A stretch of DNA of 64,000 nt from Taibaiella sp. KBW10 (GTDB taxonomy: Bacteria; Bacteroidota; Bacteroidia; Chitinophagales; Chitinophagaceae): assembly GCF_003852495.1 (NCBI RefSeq), contig NZ_QAJI01000002.1, positions 93,932 to 157,931 of the forward strand, written 5' to 3'. Each line of letters begins with the position of its first letter. Within the stretch, counting starts at the first letter, position 1. The position numbers were made by a program, and so were the translations under genes. This document shows positions 27,794-32,649 of the stretch, piece after piece. The notes beneath the pieces were generated by a model. The model did no database searches. It was given only the letters and a program-made list of their open reading frames with translations, and was not told where the DNA came from.

Positions 27794-30049
27794 TTGAGAT
27801 ACGCATTTTACAAACAGCTTGATATGATGGATTGTGGGGCTACTTGCTTGAGAATAGTAGCGAAACAATATGGCAAAGAATATAGTATTGTAAAACTGAG
27901 AAGGATCTGCGAGACCACCAAACAAGGCGTAAGTATGCAGTCTATTACCAATGCGGCAAAACAAATAGGATTTAGCACCTTAGGCGTAAAGGTCAGTCTG
28001 CAGGAGCTGAAACAAGCACCATTGCCCTGTATCCTTCATTGGGAGAATAGTCATTTCGTAGTACTCCACAAAATCGCTACGAAACAATCGGGGCATAAAA
28101 CTACTTATACGATCGCCAATCCGGCATCGGAGGGTCTCATGAATATAGATGAAGACACGTTTAAGGAGCTTTGGCAAGGCGAGTATAGCGATAAAGGCGT
28201 TGCTATATTATTAGAAAAAGAAGAAAATTTTGATGCGATACATCAGGAGGCCGACACATCGGACACGCAAAACAGAAAAGTGAACTGGCACATGCTATGG
28301 GCATACCTGATGCAGCACAAAGGATATTTTATCCAGGTCATATTCGGCCTGTTGGTCGCCAGCCTTTTTCAACTACTGATCCCTTTTCTGACCGAAGCGA
28401 TCGTAGACAAAGGGGTACATCTTAAAGATGTCAACTTCGTATATCTTATTTTGATCGCGCAGCTGATGCTGCTCTTAGCCCGTACACTAATCGACTTTTC
28501 CAGACAAGCTTTATTATTGTATATCAGTACTGCTGTTAACCTTTCCCTGTTAACCGATTTCTGGAAAAAACTTATGCACCTGCCCATTGCCTATTTCGAT
28601 ACCAAACAGACCGGCGATATCATACAACGTATAGGCGATCAGCACCGGATAGAGCGTTTTTTAACGGGAGGCAGTGTAAACATCTTATTTTCTATTATTA
28701 ACCTGATTGTGTACTCTGTTGTGATGCTGCTGTACAGTATCCCCGTATTCATCATATTTGCCATTGGCAGCATTTTATATCTTTTATGGGTATCGCTCTT
28801 CCTGAAAAAGAGAAGGCAATTGAACTATATGCAGTTTGCAGTTGCAGCTAAGGAAAACAGTGCTACACTGGAATTGGTGCATGGCATGCAAGAGATCAAA
28901 ATGCATAATGCAGAAAAGCATTTCCGGACCAGCTGGGAAGAGTTGCAGCGGTCCCTATTTACAATCAGTTTCAAGAACCTTTCCCTTAGTCAGGTACAAC
29001 AGGTAGGCGCTTTATTTATCAATGAAGGAAAAAATCTACTGGTAACAGGCCTCGTAGCGGCCGCAGTTATCAAAGGGGAACTCACCTTAGGCGCGATGCT
29101 GGCCATACAATATATTTTGGGCGCACTAAACAATCCGATACAGCAATTCACCGGCTTTATACAAGAATTTCAGGATGCCAAAATATCTCTTGAAAGGCTT
29201 AACGAAATACATGAAGAAAAAGCAGAGCCTTTGCTAACCGACCGTACTGATGTCGCTCATCCAAAACAACATTTAAGTATCTCTGTACATAACCTGGCAT
29301 TCGGCTACCTCTCCGGCGAAGAAAACCGCGTGCTGAACAATATTGATCTGGAGATTCCTGCCGGAAAAGTAACGGCAATCGTTGGCATGAGCGGTAGCGG
29401 TAAAACAACCCTATTGAAGATTTTGCAGCAGTTTTATGATCACAGCTACACAGGATCGATAACGGTACGGGAAGAGACAGCAATGCAAACTACATCTGGC
29501 CCGGAGGCCACGGAACTAAGATCTATTGTTCCTGCTTACTGGCGGCAGCAAGTAGGTAGCGTAATGCAGGATGGACATATCTTTAACCTCCCGATAAGGG
29601 ATAATATTGCGCTGGGTATGGATAAGGTTGATATGCAGCAACTGGAGTATGCGGTACATATTGCTAACCTGAAATCGTTTATAGACAACCTGCCGCTTGG
29701 TTATGACACAAAGATTGGTATGGAGGGTAACGGAATCAGTCAGGGACAAAAGCAAAGAATACTTATTGCCAGGGCTGTATATAAAAATCCGGAAATACTT
29801 CTTTTTGACGAAGCCACAAATGCACTTGATGCAAACAATGAAAAAGTGATACTGGAAAATTTAGAAAGCTTTTTTAAAGGCAAAACCGTAGTGGTGGTGG
29901 CGCACCGCCTGAGTACCGTAAAGAATGCAGATAAAATCGTCGTACTCGAAAAAGGCCGTATTGTAGAAGAAGGCAATCATGAAGTGCTTACGGCACTTAA
30001 AGGTAAATATTATCAGTTGGTCAAAAACCAACTTGAATTGGGGACTTAA
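27794..30049 (+). CDS. Peptidase-containing ABC exporter (C39, PCAT) of the RiPP cluster
   Basis: A 751-residue transporter that cuts double-glycine leader peptides and exports the core. Residues 1-135 are a C39 peptidase: oxyanion Gln Q8, nucleophile C14 (MDCGATC), H87 (SHFVVL) and, at the usual Asp position, N109 (IANPASEG). Residues ~178-450 hold the membrane helices; the ABC domain has Walker A GMSGSGKTT (531-539), signature ISQGQ (~648) and Walker B ILLFDE. The start is TTG at 27794: a stop lies two codons upstream and the first ATG (residue 11) would remove Q8. The matching substrate is the precursor at 32238-32465. Followed 14 bases later by a small HlyD-like gene. Confidence 0.95.
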   Translation: MRYAFYKQLDMMDCGATCLRIVAKQYGKEYSIVKLRRICETTKQGVSMQSITNAAKQIGFSTLGVKVSLQELKQAPLPCILHWENSHFVVLHKIATKQSGHKTTYTIANPASEGLMNIDEDTFKELWQGEYSDKGVAILLEKEENFDAIHQEADTSDTQNRKVNWHMLWAYLMQHKGYFIQVIFGLLVASLFQLLIPFLTEAIVDKGVHLKDVNFVYLILIAQLMLLLARTLIDFSRQALLLYISTAVNLSLLTDFWKKLMHLPIAYFDTKQTGDIIQRIGDQHRIERFLTGGSVNILFSIINLIVYSVVMLLYSIPVFIIFAIGSILYLLWVSLFLKKRRQLNYMQFAVAAKENSATLELVHGMQEIKMHNAEKHFRTSWEELQRSLFTISFKNLSLSQVQQVGALFINEGKNLLVTGLVAAAVIKGELTLGAMLAIQYILGALNNPIQQFTGFIQEFQDAKISLERLNEIHEEKAEPLLTDRTDVAHPKQHLSISVHNLAFGYLSGEENRVLNNIDLEIPAGKVTAIVGMSGSGKTTLLKILQQFYDHSYTGSITVREETAMQTTSGPEATELRSIVPAYWRQQVGSVMQDGHIFNLPIRDNIALGMDKVDMQQLEYAVHIANLKSFIDNLPLGYDTKIGMEGNGISQGQKQRILIARAVYKNPEILLFDEATNALDANNEKVILENLESFFKGKTVVVVAHRLSTVKNADKIVVLEKGRIVEEGNHEVLTALKGKYYQLVKNQLELGT

Positions 30050-30063
30050 TAATACGATTAAAA

Positions 30064-30513
30064 ATGAAACCTAATTTTTTAGCCCGGTATGGACTACTGA
30101 TTGCCCTGGCCTTTTTGCTGCTGGTATGCAGCCTGGCCTTTTGTATACCTTATCCAATGTCGATAAAGGGTAAGGCGATAGAAAGCCAATCTCACCCAAA
30201 TCAGAATACCTATACTTTGATCGTACGGATACCAGGGCGTACAGATACACATCTTTTGCAAAAGGAGGCCTTAGGGCTTACCCTACCGGGGCAGAAAGCC
30301 CCCACCTATCCCGTAGAACAAGTGATTGTGCACAATGTAATCTCTTCCAAAGATTCCGGCGAATTTATGACCGTCGAGTTAAGGATAAATACAAACAATA
30401 ATAAGCCTCCTTTAGCTTTGGCCGACGGAATAAATACACCAATAGTGTTATTAAGCGACCTTAGTTTAGCAGAACATTTTTTCAAAAAACTGACCGAAAA
30501 AACAAAGCAATAA
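30064..30513 (+). CDS. Minimal HlyD-like membrane-anchored protein of the exporter
   Basis: A 149-residue protein with a short cytoplasmic N-terminus, one membrane helix (about 9-30, LLIALAFLLLVCSLAFCI) and a periplasmic domain of about 115 residues. The distal part (VRIPGRTDTHLLQKEALGLTLPG, YPVEQVIVHNVISS, TPIVLLSDLSLAEHFFKKL) resembles the beta-barrel and C-terminal strands of Bacteroidota HlyD adaptors that pair with C39 exporters. The lipoyl and coiled-coil hairpin regions of a normal HlyD (300-450 aa) are absent. It follows the exporter by 14 bases and is probably its partner. The assignment is by pattern and position; no TolC-like gene is nearby. Confidence 0.7.
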   Translation: MKPNFLARYGLLIALAFLLLVCSLAFCIPYPMSIKGKAIESQSHPNQNTYTLIVRIPGRTDTHLLQKEALGLTLPGQKAPTYPVEQVIVHNVISSKDSGEFMTVELRINTNNNKPPLALADGINTPIVLLSDLSLAEHFFKKLTEKTKQ

Positions 30514-30543
30514 GAGGCTATCAGGTGCAGTGGTGGCGCTTTA

Positions 30544-31269
30544 TTATGGCCGCTTAAAGTATCCGGCGTGATAAGCCTTATCTTCTTCAGAAACCCGGCC
30601 GGCAAGAATATCTTGCACTAGGGTTTCGGGTATCATAACCATATCTATTCTATCTATATATTGTATCAGGTAAAAACTATTTACCTTACGGATCTTATCG
30701 GCCTCAATAACATGTCCGGGTTCATTTTGGATTACTTCATCTATCAAATCCCTCAGTTCATAGTTTGCATACAAGAGTCTTGTTTTTTCGTCAAGTACCG
30801 GATGGTAAATCGCCACATTTTGCTCCGTACTTTCAAACACATCAAAACGAATGCTGTTGTAGGTCATTTCAAAATTAAGCACATCATGCAAATGGGGTAA
30901 ATGATCCAATTTGCCTTCTTTAACTTTCTGCAATAAGAAACTCGCGAAGAGCAATACCTCATCTCTAAATTGAAAATTGGTTTTTATATAATCATCCCAA
31001 AATGCACGTGTATGTTGCTTAATCTCTTTACTCAACATTTTGCAACTGTAGGGCATCAGGTCAAATAAAGGTGTAAACCGGTTGATCTGATACAACATAC
31101 AATTGGTCACCATCCCCCTTTGGTTTAGAATGTCAAGAAGCCGCTCCTGTTCAATATCAGTAAGCGCATACCTTTCATTCATTAATTCGGGTGTTTTCTT
31201 TATGGCCCTGCACAAGGCAGGATCTGCAACCAAATCAGCAAAGGCCTGCTGAAAATCTACTAAAGGCAT
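30544..31269 (-). CDS. MNIO partner protein (MbnC/TglI/ChrI-type role) of the RiPP cluster
   Basis: A 241-residue cytoplasmic protein I recognise only by context. Its start overlaps the end of the DUF692 enzyme gene by 10 bases, the usual coupling of MNIO enzymes with a partner that binds the precursor leader. The N-terminal ~55 residues (FADLVADPALCRAIKKTPELMNERYALTDIEQERLLDIL) form a helical LTxxExxxL pattern also seen in small leader- or substrate-binding domains; the middle is helical and Phe/Leu-rich, and the C-terminal third (RKVNSFYLIQYIDRID) looks like beta strands. No catalytic motif is visible. Function as a leader-recognition subunit is inference. Confidence 0.7.
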   Translation of the reverse strand: MPLVDFQQAFADLVADPALCRAIKKTPELMNERYALTDIEQERLLDILNQRGMVTNCMLYQINRFTPLFDLMPYSCKMLSKEIKQHTRAFWDDYIKTNFQFRDEVLLFASFLLQKVKEGKLDHLPHLHDVLNFEMTYNSIRFDVFESTEQNVAIYHPVLDEKTRLLYANYELRDLIDEVIQNEPGHVIEADKIRKVNSFYLIQYIDRIDMVMIPETLVQDILAGRVSEEDKAYHAGYFKRP

Positions 31270-32150
31270 ACTATCTCTTTATATTTTGAACAAATGCTTC
31301 TCGCCATTTCCAACTGCTCATAAATACCTTCATTGCCCATCGTTTCAAAGTAGGATTCATGGAACTCAAACGTCACACCTCTGAGATTGGGACATTTAGG
31401 TACGACATAGTCCAGCAGTTCCCATACCTCATCATTGCACCTACCCGAATGGGAATCCAAATACATTTCTCCGACCACATTACCCCCGGCAATATGCATC
31501 TCTTCTACTGTACTTAAATCAATGCTGTCCACAAAGGCCTTACGGTCAAATTTAAAATTGGTGGCATTGGCATGCACATTATGCAGATCCAGCAAGATGC
31601 CACAACCGCTTTTTTCCGTTAGCTTTTTAAGAAAAGCGCCCTCTGCATATTGCTCCTTCTTAATCTCGACAAAATAAACATTGTTTTCCATCAGAAAAGG
31701 CGTCTGGATCGTTTGTTTGATTTGTTTGATTTTGCTGGAGAGCATATCGATTACCTCATCATCAAAAGGTAGCGGGAGCGACAAACAGGTACTGTATTCG
31801 GTCACTTCATCATCATGTACTTTAGAATACGACAAATGATCGCTATTCCATGCAAAATTATACGTCTCCTGCAGCTTCATTACATTCTCCAGATATTCAT
31901 TGTCGAAATAACCCGCCGTACCCAGGGAGAAACCCACATGATGGGCTACCAAGGGCCATTGTTCTCCCAGTTTGTGGATCTTTGAGGCATACCCGGGAGA
32001 CATGGTAAACCGGTCCTTTTGACCAACCCCATTATCGGTAAACCAGATATCCGGTATGATTTCTATGTAGTTTATGGAGTCGGGGTATAGGTTAAAATAG
32101 GTCTCTAATGAGGGATTATACAAAATCCCAACACCCAAAAATTGATTCAT
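31260..32150 (-). CDS. DUF692 multinuclear non-heme iron oxidative enzyme (MNIO) of the RiPP cluster
   Basis: A 296-residue TIM-barrel enzyme of DUF692, the family of MbnB, TglH, ChrH and the bufferin enzymes, which use two or three irons and oxygen to remodel Cys (sometimes Asp) residues in peptides. Expected motifs are present in order: YIEIIPDIW (28-36), VAHHVGFSLGTAG (H70/H71), SDHLSYS (D104, H105), MENNVYF (E155), ILLDLHNVHANATNF (D188, H190, N191), EMHIAGG (H219), LDSHSGRCNDEVWELL (D232, H234) and FEFHESYF (E262, H264). The gene lies 87 bases after the Cys-rich precursor and overlaps the partner gene. The exact chemistry cannot be read from sequence. Confidence 0.93.
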   Translation of the reverse strand: MNQFLGVGILYNPSLETYFNLYPDSINYIEIIPDIWFTDNGVGQKDRFTMSPGYASKIHKLGEQWPLVAHHVGFSLGTAGYFDNEYLENVMKLQETYNFAWNSDHLSYSKVHDDEVTEYSTCLSLPLPFDDEVIDMLSSKIKQIKQTIQTPFLMENNVYFVEIKKEQYAEGAFLKKLTEKSGCGILLDLHNVHANATNFKFDRKAFVDSIDLSTVEEMHIAGGNVVGEMYLDSHSGRCNDEVWELLDYVVPKCPNLRGVTFEFHESYFETMGNEGIYEQLEMARSICSKYKEIVCL

Positions 32151-32171
32151 ACTGTGTGCTGCATTACAGGT

Positions 32172-32219
32172 TAGAAATTAAAATAGACACAACAAAAGCC
32201 ATAAGCCTGCTGTGTCTAT
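32172..32219 (-). terminator. Attenuator-like hairpin between precursor and MNIO genes
   Basis: On the minus strand ATAGACACA (from 32219) pairs with TGTGTCTAT (to 32183) around a 19-base loop, followed by TTTAATTTC. Partial termination here would give more precursor than enzyme transcript, a common arrangement in peptide operons. Strength is inferred. Confidence 0.6.
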
Positions 32220-32237
32220 CTTATAAAGAAGTTTGCG

Positions 32238-32465
32238 TTAGATTACCTCTGTAAAGGTATCTACATAATCGGTAATTTTGCCTCCTGTGAAACCCGATCT
32301 GCAGGCTGGGCAAGTCGGAGCAGGAAACCCTGATCTGCAAGCCGGACAAGTTGGATCTACCGGTGGTTTTTGTCCATCGGTACCATCTCCACCAATAATT
32401 GATTTTGTTTCAATGCTCGTTAATTCTGAAGACTTGAAAGCGTCCATTTTTTTTTGACTTTCCAT
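32238..32465 (-). CDS. RiPP precursor peptide with double-glycine leader and two TCPACRSGF repeats
   Basis: A 75-residue peptide. The leader, residues 1-26, ends LTSIETKSIIGG and matches the double-glycine rule position by position: L at -12, T at -11, E at -8, I at -4, G at -2 and -1. Cleavage would follow G26. The core then holds two identical nonamers TCPACRSGF at residues 39-47 and 51-59 (period 12), giving four Cys as two CPAC motifs (C40, C43, C52, C55), and ends with an acidic tail (residues 63-75). It has no similarity I know outside this arrangement. The DUF692 gene follows on the same strand, and a C39 exporter lies close by. Confidence 0.9.
   Translation of the reverse strand: MESQKKMDAFKSSELTSIETKSIIGGDGTDGQKPPVDPTCPACRSGFPAPTCPACRSGFTGGKITDYVDTFTEVI
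32289..32351 (-). repeat. In-gene 36-bp tandem duplication encoding the two CPAC cores
   Basis: The segments 32325-32351 and 32289-32315 encode the same nine residues, with a 36-base period. The DNA copies differ at several third-codon positions (for example GCCGGA versus GCTGGG) while the protein is identical, which suggests selection on the peptide rather than a very recent copy. Confidence 0.85.
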
Positions 32466-32649
32466 GGCAGATATTTTTTTAATTTACTCCTACTCTTTAA
32501 GCTTTTCGGATTCCGCTATATTTATTCCGAAGATAGTGTTTTTTATAAAAAATAAAAAAAATAATACGCATTTATGTGTAGATACTCTTTTGAGAATTAA
32601 TAACCCATCTCGGCTCATAAGCACAATAAAAGTCGAAAAATAAAAATTA

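Follow-up and report, generated by a model that had tools for sequence, protein, structure and literature searches.

Operon for a cysteine-motif peptide

The 64,000-nucleotide stretch of Taibaiella sp. KBW10 analysed here (the window) carries, on its minus strand, genes for a small precursor peptide, a DUF692 (MNIO) iron enzyme and an overlapping partner protein. Taken as a whole, the evidence is best explained by an operon that probably makes an MNIO-modified ribosomally synthesized and post-translationally modified peptide (RiPP) from a precursor with a CPxCRSG motif, and judging from the sequences, this short peptide with its repeated Cys-x-x-Cys-x-Ser-Gly motif very probably has its cysteines modified by the iron enzyme together with the partner. 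The initial annotation had proposed an MNIO RiPP operon as part of a five-gene cluster; all five genes were as described, with correct coordinates and translations, and the operon was borne out by a PF05114 match of 182 bits, by the nine conserved iron ligands and by a gene order kept in relatives. Comparisons were made with the nearest relative, G003 (record MKTB01000007.1, 'Bacteroidetes bacterium 43-16'), with three members of the genus g2 (G005, G516 and G637) and with more distant genomes; G000 denotes the window genome itself. The features of the operon are as follows.

32238..32465, minus strand: precursor peptide gene, 75 aa (open reading frame, ORF; core and tail kept in G003, locus L003)
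32388..32465, minus strand: leader, residues 1-26, with Gly-Gly end (Gly-Gly at residues 25-26)
32325..32348, minus strand: core copy 1, CPACRSGF, residues 40-47 (precursor alignment)
32289..32312, minus strand: core copy 2, CPACRSGF, residues 52-59 (alignment of 13 precursors)
32241..32288, minus strand: C-terminal tail TGGKITDYVDTFTEVI, follower-like (kept between G000 and G003 only)
32179..32223, minus strand: stem-loop in the precursor/MNIO gap, probable attenuator (RNA folding, z -3.2)
32487..32510, minus strand: 24-nt block TCCGAAAAGCTTAWAGAGTAGGAG, 5' of the precursor (shared by G000 and G003)
31260..32150, minus strand: DUF692/MNIO enzyme, 296 aa (PF05114 match, nine iron ligands)
30544..31269, minus strand: MNIO partner, 241 aa, TglI-like predicted fold, PME-type 2-like (structure prediction; no family)

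Precursor and motif family

The family search that the initial annotation had suggested returned no Pfam or NCBIfam family above cut-off for the precursor, none for the partner, and PF05114 for the enzyme. At the matching place in G003, whose MNIO is 73% identical to that of the window, lies a 71-aa ORF with the core DPLCPECRSGFTGIPPTCPTCRSGFTGGKIADYV. The second core and tail differed from this closest orthologue at 12 synonymous and 6 non-synonymous codons, and because of this synonymous excess the precursor frame is regarded as more than chance.

Related precursors were recovered well beyond this pair. The g2 ORFs have CCP(G/A)C(R/L)SGxNxxV after a Gly-Gly leader, and those of G574 and G1036 have GCQACLSGxHFxIRE after a leader of another kind. 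In G518, G1277, and G171, whose MNIOs form a second clade and are fused to a C-terminal domain, the precursors have (G/N)CPxC(H/Y)SGF. When 13 precursors were aligned, M1, C52, C55, and G58 were invariant, and S57 was present in all but one. A screen of 3131 ORFs of 30-140 aa (28 loci, 403 kb) found C-x-x-C-x-S-G in 12, every one of them directly upstream of an MNIO gene; these genes belong to two related clades, and their precursors have several kinds of leader. One match elsewhere, at locus L007, was unrelated and appeared to be spurious. The window core thus belongs to a wider C-x-x-C-x-S-G precursor family. The earlier remark that the core was not recognised from any described product is amended by this placement. 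The proposal that the CPAC motifs are the substrate appears very likely, given the confinement of the motif to ORFs upstream of these enzymes. Lack of conservation of the precursor in relatives that keep the enzyme had been named as the outcome that would speak against the system; a motif-bearing precursor was found wherever close relatives of the MNIO occurred.

The leader had been described as a canonical double-glycine leader. Its Gly-Gly end was confirmed, and Ile at -4, Glu at -8, and Leu at -12 fit, but Thr at -7 means that it is not strictly canonical. Judged by reading the sequence, the precursor has no Sec signal, its leader being hydrophilic and ending in Gly-Gly. Two of the g2 leaders weakly resembled class I lanthipeptide leaders, below cut-off.

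Two further arrangements were observed within the precursor family. G171 encodes, beside an intact copy, a paralogue in which both cysteines are missing (GYPDGYAGF; L081 5339-5605, minus strand). G005 and G516 each have a tandem pair of precursors (L013 7559-8201 and L039 9954-10718), in which CPGCRSG is found in one member and CPACLSG in the other, and both members contain additional Cys residues; these are possibly two-peptide products.

MNIO enzyme and partner protein

The enzyme matched PF05114 at 1.6e-53, with 182 bits against a cut-off of 25, and stayed below every NCBIfam equivalog cut-off (BufB 1.4e-47, HvfB 1.3e-40, ApyH 3.8e-25, and ChrH 5e-19, the last with 68.6 bits against a cut-off of 600 for model NF050165). 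All nine iron ligands listed for TglH (PMC10880893) are kept, namely H70, H105, E155, D188, N191, H219, D232, H234, and E262. Two residues beyond the final Glu ligand, the window enzyme has His264, where the aligned bufferin-type and EGKCG-type enzymes and MbnB (PDB 7dz9) have Asp. Within the close clade, G003, G574, and G1036 share the His of the window and the g2 enzymes have Asp; Gln or Leu occurs in other groups. The equivalence of His264 to Asp249 of FonB, whose replacement by Ala left the peptide unmodified (PMC12668002), rests on our alignment and on the D-F pair in EGKCG-type enzymes. The Arg gate of FonB corresponds to Tyr-Asn in the window enzyme, which has the active-site motifs LDLHN and HI(A/S)GG in common with Dyb enzymes. 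In the MNIO tree, the window clade (7 rows, 94/94) was apart from the bufferin-type enzymes (8 rows) and fell outside the bufferin group, with 94/89 support for the bufferin side; the deep branches were weak. The predicted fold (pLDDT 85) was closest to the TglH chains 8hi7_B and 8hci_B (TM 0.81), ahead of 3bww and MbnB.

The partner gene overlaps the MNIO gene by 10 bases. Its profile gave chance matches only against PDB sequences, so structure prediction was needed. The AlphaFold model (seven orthologues, pLDDT 82) matched the TglI chains 8hci_A and 8hi7_A with an E value of 2e-5 and a probability of 1.00, the next match having an E value of 1.1. The overlapping gene was accordingly upheld as an MNIO partner, as first annotated. 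It follows the MNIO gene, has no DUF2063 signature and is structurally related to TglI/NGO1945, all features of PME-type 2 partners, a type found alongside precursors that have no Sec signal (PMC12452194). The C-terminal domain of the fused clade is related to the same partner (hhalign probability 91, E 1e-6). Because the best fold of the MNIO is TglH and that of the partner is TglI, the modelled pair looks like a TglHI-type holoenzyme.

Operon conservation and flanking elements

The gene-order comparison, also suggested in the initial annotation, found precursor, MNIO, and partner in the same order in six relatives (G003, G005, G516, G637, G574, and G1036), behind leaders with or without Gly-Gly. 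The 87-base gap between the precursor and MNIO genes holds a stem-loop, and such a hairpin was found in the gap at six of seven loci, with a z score of -3.2 in the window and of -3.6 to -6.2 in five of the six relatives; by RNA folding, no such hairpin was found in the G1036 gap. The stems of the relatives are unrelated in sequence. A hairpin in this gap is usual where a precursor is needed in excess over the products of the downstream genes, and the stem-loop may act here as an attenuator that gives such an excess.

Upstream of the precursor, the 24-nt block occurs at one site in the window genome, at one site in G003 and at none in eight other genomes, and the leader peptide between the block and the core has diverged between the two genomes. 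As it occurs in just these two genomes, once in each, the block was rejected as a regulon signal.

Exporter and shortened adaptor

Facing the operon is a second gene group on the plus strand.

27794..30049, plus strand: C39 peptidase-ABC exporter, 751 aa, with a putative role in the system (domain matches)
30064..30513, plus strand: internally shortened HlyD-like protein, 149 aa (alignment to full adaptors)

The two groups are convergent, tail to tail, with their ends 30 bases apart, and a cation-efflux gene adjoins the exporter. The exporter has Peptidase_C39 (1.1e-31), ABC_membrane, and ABC_tran domains, and its TTG start is backed by orthologue alignment. Its ORF is intact, with C14, H87, Walker A, signature, Walker B, and H-loop. 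The triad Asp of the C39 domain, present in all four homologues, is Asn109 in the window, the sole case among the five aligned exporters; since papain-type enzymes have Asn at the equivalent place, this residue need not inactivate the domain. Homologues of the exporter (in G003, G004, and G005) lie in loci with full HlyD adaptors of ~410-445 aa, with a TolC-like gene in three of the four, and some of these loci hold other maturation-type genes, the gene types being named by reading the sequences. G004 has an exporter homologue but no MNIO of the window type. The small protein had been called HlyD-like, which holds for both of its ends (N-terminal E 1e-7), and its ORF is intact. Its likeness does not extend to the centre, and, apart from one weak match with stops, no other shortened adaptor was found in 296 family genomes. 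No full adaptor of its type was found elsewhere in the window genome.

Several findings weigh against the reading proposed here, in part or as a whole. On the export side, the exporter is not beside the MNIO gene in any of the six close relatives, three of which have Gly-Gly leaders (G005, G516, and G637); the Gly-Gly is absent from the G003 orthologue; and the 149-aa protein is without ~260 central residues, where the hairpin and lipoyl domains that span the periplasm are expected. On the enzyme side, the base Asp of FonB and MbnB is replaced by His264, and Asn73, essential in TglH, is unmatched, with His71/Val72 at the aligned site.

The strongest rival concerns the exporter: that it and the small HlyD-like protein are leftovers of another RiPP cluster, the MNIO product being exported or processed otherwise or kept inside the cell. 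We regard this as a serious possibility, somewhat short of even. It would fit the convergent orientation and the lack of adjacency in relatives, the presence of homologues among other maturation-type genes with full HlyD and TolC genes, the truncated adaptor unique to this genome, the Asn at the C39 Asp position and the precursor of G003. Conversely, the ORF retains every ATPase motif named above, no other full C39 exporter was found in the window genome, whose precursor does have Gly-Gly, and no remains of another RiPP cluster were found near it in the window.

A Gly-Gly leader and a C39 exporter occur in one locus, and the full HlyD-type adaptor is missing from it. The exporter had been described as dedicated to the system, which goes too far: it is on the other strand and not in the same operon, and its homologues lie elsewhere, in loci of other RiPP types where the adaptor is complete. 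Because no exporter stands beside the MNIO in the six relatives and the nearest orthologous precursor has no Gly-Gly, use of the window exporter by this system is plausible and not more. The shortened adaptor might reflect decay, the borrowing of another adaptor or delivery to the periplasm only.

Proposed mechanism and significance

In the mechanism favoured here, attenuation at the stem-loop would leave the precursor transcript in excess over those of the enzymes. The TglI-like partner, to judge from the predicted folds, would dock the precursor onto the tri-iron MNIO to form a TglHI-like holoenzyme, and in each CPxCRSG motif the iron centre would then oxidise one Cys or both, a step suggested because the iron ligands are kept and the precursor is invariant in the motif only. 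Candidate outcomes are a heterocycle or another Cys oxidation by two or four electrons, and a crosslink through Cys of the kind that ChrH/DybH introduce at CPxCGxG. Since the motif occurs twice in the precursors of the window strain and its sister, modification would take place at two sites. The suggestion in the initial annotation that the peptide may bind metal gained no specific support from the analysis. The leader would then probably be removed at Gly-Gly by the C39 exporter (27794-30049), and the product would leave the cell or, given the truncated adaptor, halt in the periplasm.

More tentatively, the CxxCxSG systems may form a distinct class of Bacteroidota MNIO RiPPs, with TglHI-like enzymes, a His base and an undescribed Cys chemistry at CPxC-Arg-Ser-Gly, in which the core has been refitted with differing leaders (folded-type, lanthipeptide-like Gly-Gly or without Gly-Gly) that would lead to differing destinations. 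This joint claim is possible, and we hold it with less than even confidence.

MNIOs perform unusual oxidative chemistry on cysteines, and we know of no product for most of their clades. The window locus and its relatives provide a limited number of substrates open to experiment, all sharing one seven-residue motif, together with both proteins of a complete enzyme. Their natural variants, with His or Asp at the base position and with fused or split enzymes, allow a direct test of which residues set the outcome of an MNIO, and the leader swaps around a constant core bear on the exchange of export routes among RiPP classes.

Distribution and prior description

The partner profile matched one of 395 genomes of the class, that of the window itself. 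The enzyme profile matched eight of 396 genomes of the family at E <= 1e-40 and 13 of 395 genomes of the phylum, where the best matches besides the window genome were of the fused type (G1277 and G171), at 1e-48 or weaker. Within the order, nearly all of the 55 MNIO matches were bufferin-like or ChrH/Dyb-like by score, with the enzymes of the window and G1036 as intermediates. Six records of plasmid relatives contained no CxxCxSG, and those of recognisable type were bufferin-like.

A second MNIO system was observed in the window genome (L002, C1:641232-644831). It is of ChrH/DybH type (NF050165, 5e-114) and distinct from the window operon. Its two lipobox precursors end in CPACGMG and CITCGRG, and the system matches the lipidated DAG-RiPPs (PMC12636315).

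The literature search returned, in the portions of the sources that were available, nothing relevant that joins an MNIO with a double-glycine leader or a C39 exporter; one review mentions both DUF692 and C39. In the accessible part of one report, signal-peptide-less, MNIO-linked precursors named adjamnio-7 are said to carry a CxxC motif (PMC12452194).

Comparison with known systems

The bufferins or captophorins (BufB, HvfB, and FonB) resemble the window system in combining a PF05114 enzyme with a partner and Cys-bearing precursors, and their models gave the best NCBIfam scores. A copper-binding peptide of this kind, with each Cys converted to 5-thiooxazole as by BufB, HvfB or FonB, is nevertheless unlikely. 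The BufB and HvfB scores lie far below cut-off, and the cation-efflux gene beside the exporter, which would speak for this product, was not seen at the G003 locus. A DUF2063 (PME1) partner and a Sec signal peptide accompany thiooxazole MNIOs (PMC12668002, PMC12452194), and the window system showed neither. The core motif is another one, the Arg gate and E-x-D base (Asp249) of FonB are Tyr-Asn and E-x-His, and the clade stands outside the bufferin group (94/89). Captophorin membership was ruled out by the partner, the base residue, and the gate residues.

The chryseobasin and DybA lipo-RiPPs (ChrH and DybH) are likewise from Bacteroidota and have CPAC in the core, and their enzymes share the LDLHN and GG active-site motifs. 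A ChrH/DybH-like macrocycle-hydantoin at CPxC, through convergent use of CPAC, would draw on the resemblance of CPACRSGF to CPACGMG and on the true Dyb-type CPACGMG system in the same genome. It is improbable, since the window enzyme is distant (5e-19 with the ChrH model against 5e-114 for the Dyb-type enzyme of this genome) and too short to include the helical C-terminal domain that marks the subfamily. A partner is encoded, the leader has Gly-Gly and no lipobox, and the motif is internal and continues with Arg-Ser-Gly, not the Gly-x-Gly of a C-terminal CPxCGxG. On the NCBIfam score, membership was ruled out, even though the genome holds a true Dyb-type system. An unmodified zinc-binding CPxC...CPxC peptide, hinted at by weak sub-threshold zinc-ribbon matches, is very improbable and was set aside, as the relatives' precursors have a single CxxC and it is CxxCxSG, not the two-knuckle layout, that is kept.

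C39-exported peptides of Bacteroidota with double-glycine leaders, such as bacteroidetocins and class I lanthipeptides, share the Gly-Gly leader and the nearby C39-ABC exporter. The window system differs in that its maturation enzyme is an MNIO, its adaptor is truncated, and the exporter is not kept with the operon. The adjamnio-7 precursors, for which the part of the source available names an example from Novilysobacter, were likened to the window precursor by description, and on that footing the CxxCxSG family may or may not overlap with them.

The closest likeness in structure is to TglHI of the 3-thiaglutamate/pearlin pathway of Pseudomonas syringae (PDB 8hci, 8hi7, and 8hi8), with which the window system shares both predicted subunit folds, the nine iron ligands, a Y-N motif near the N terminus and a precursor without a Sec signal. 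Identity is ~24%, Asn73 of TglH has no counterpart, and none of the ORFs at the locus was recognised as a gene of TglB type, the type whose product appends Cys to the precursor in that pathway. Moreover, the substrate Cys of TglHI is C-terminal and added by means of tRNA, whereas those of the window are encoded, internal, and duplicated in CPxCRSG. As it departs in defining features from captophorins, TglHI, and ChrH/DybH, the system is an undescribed variant within the known MNIO RiPP class.

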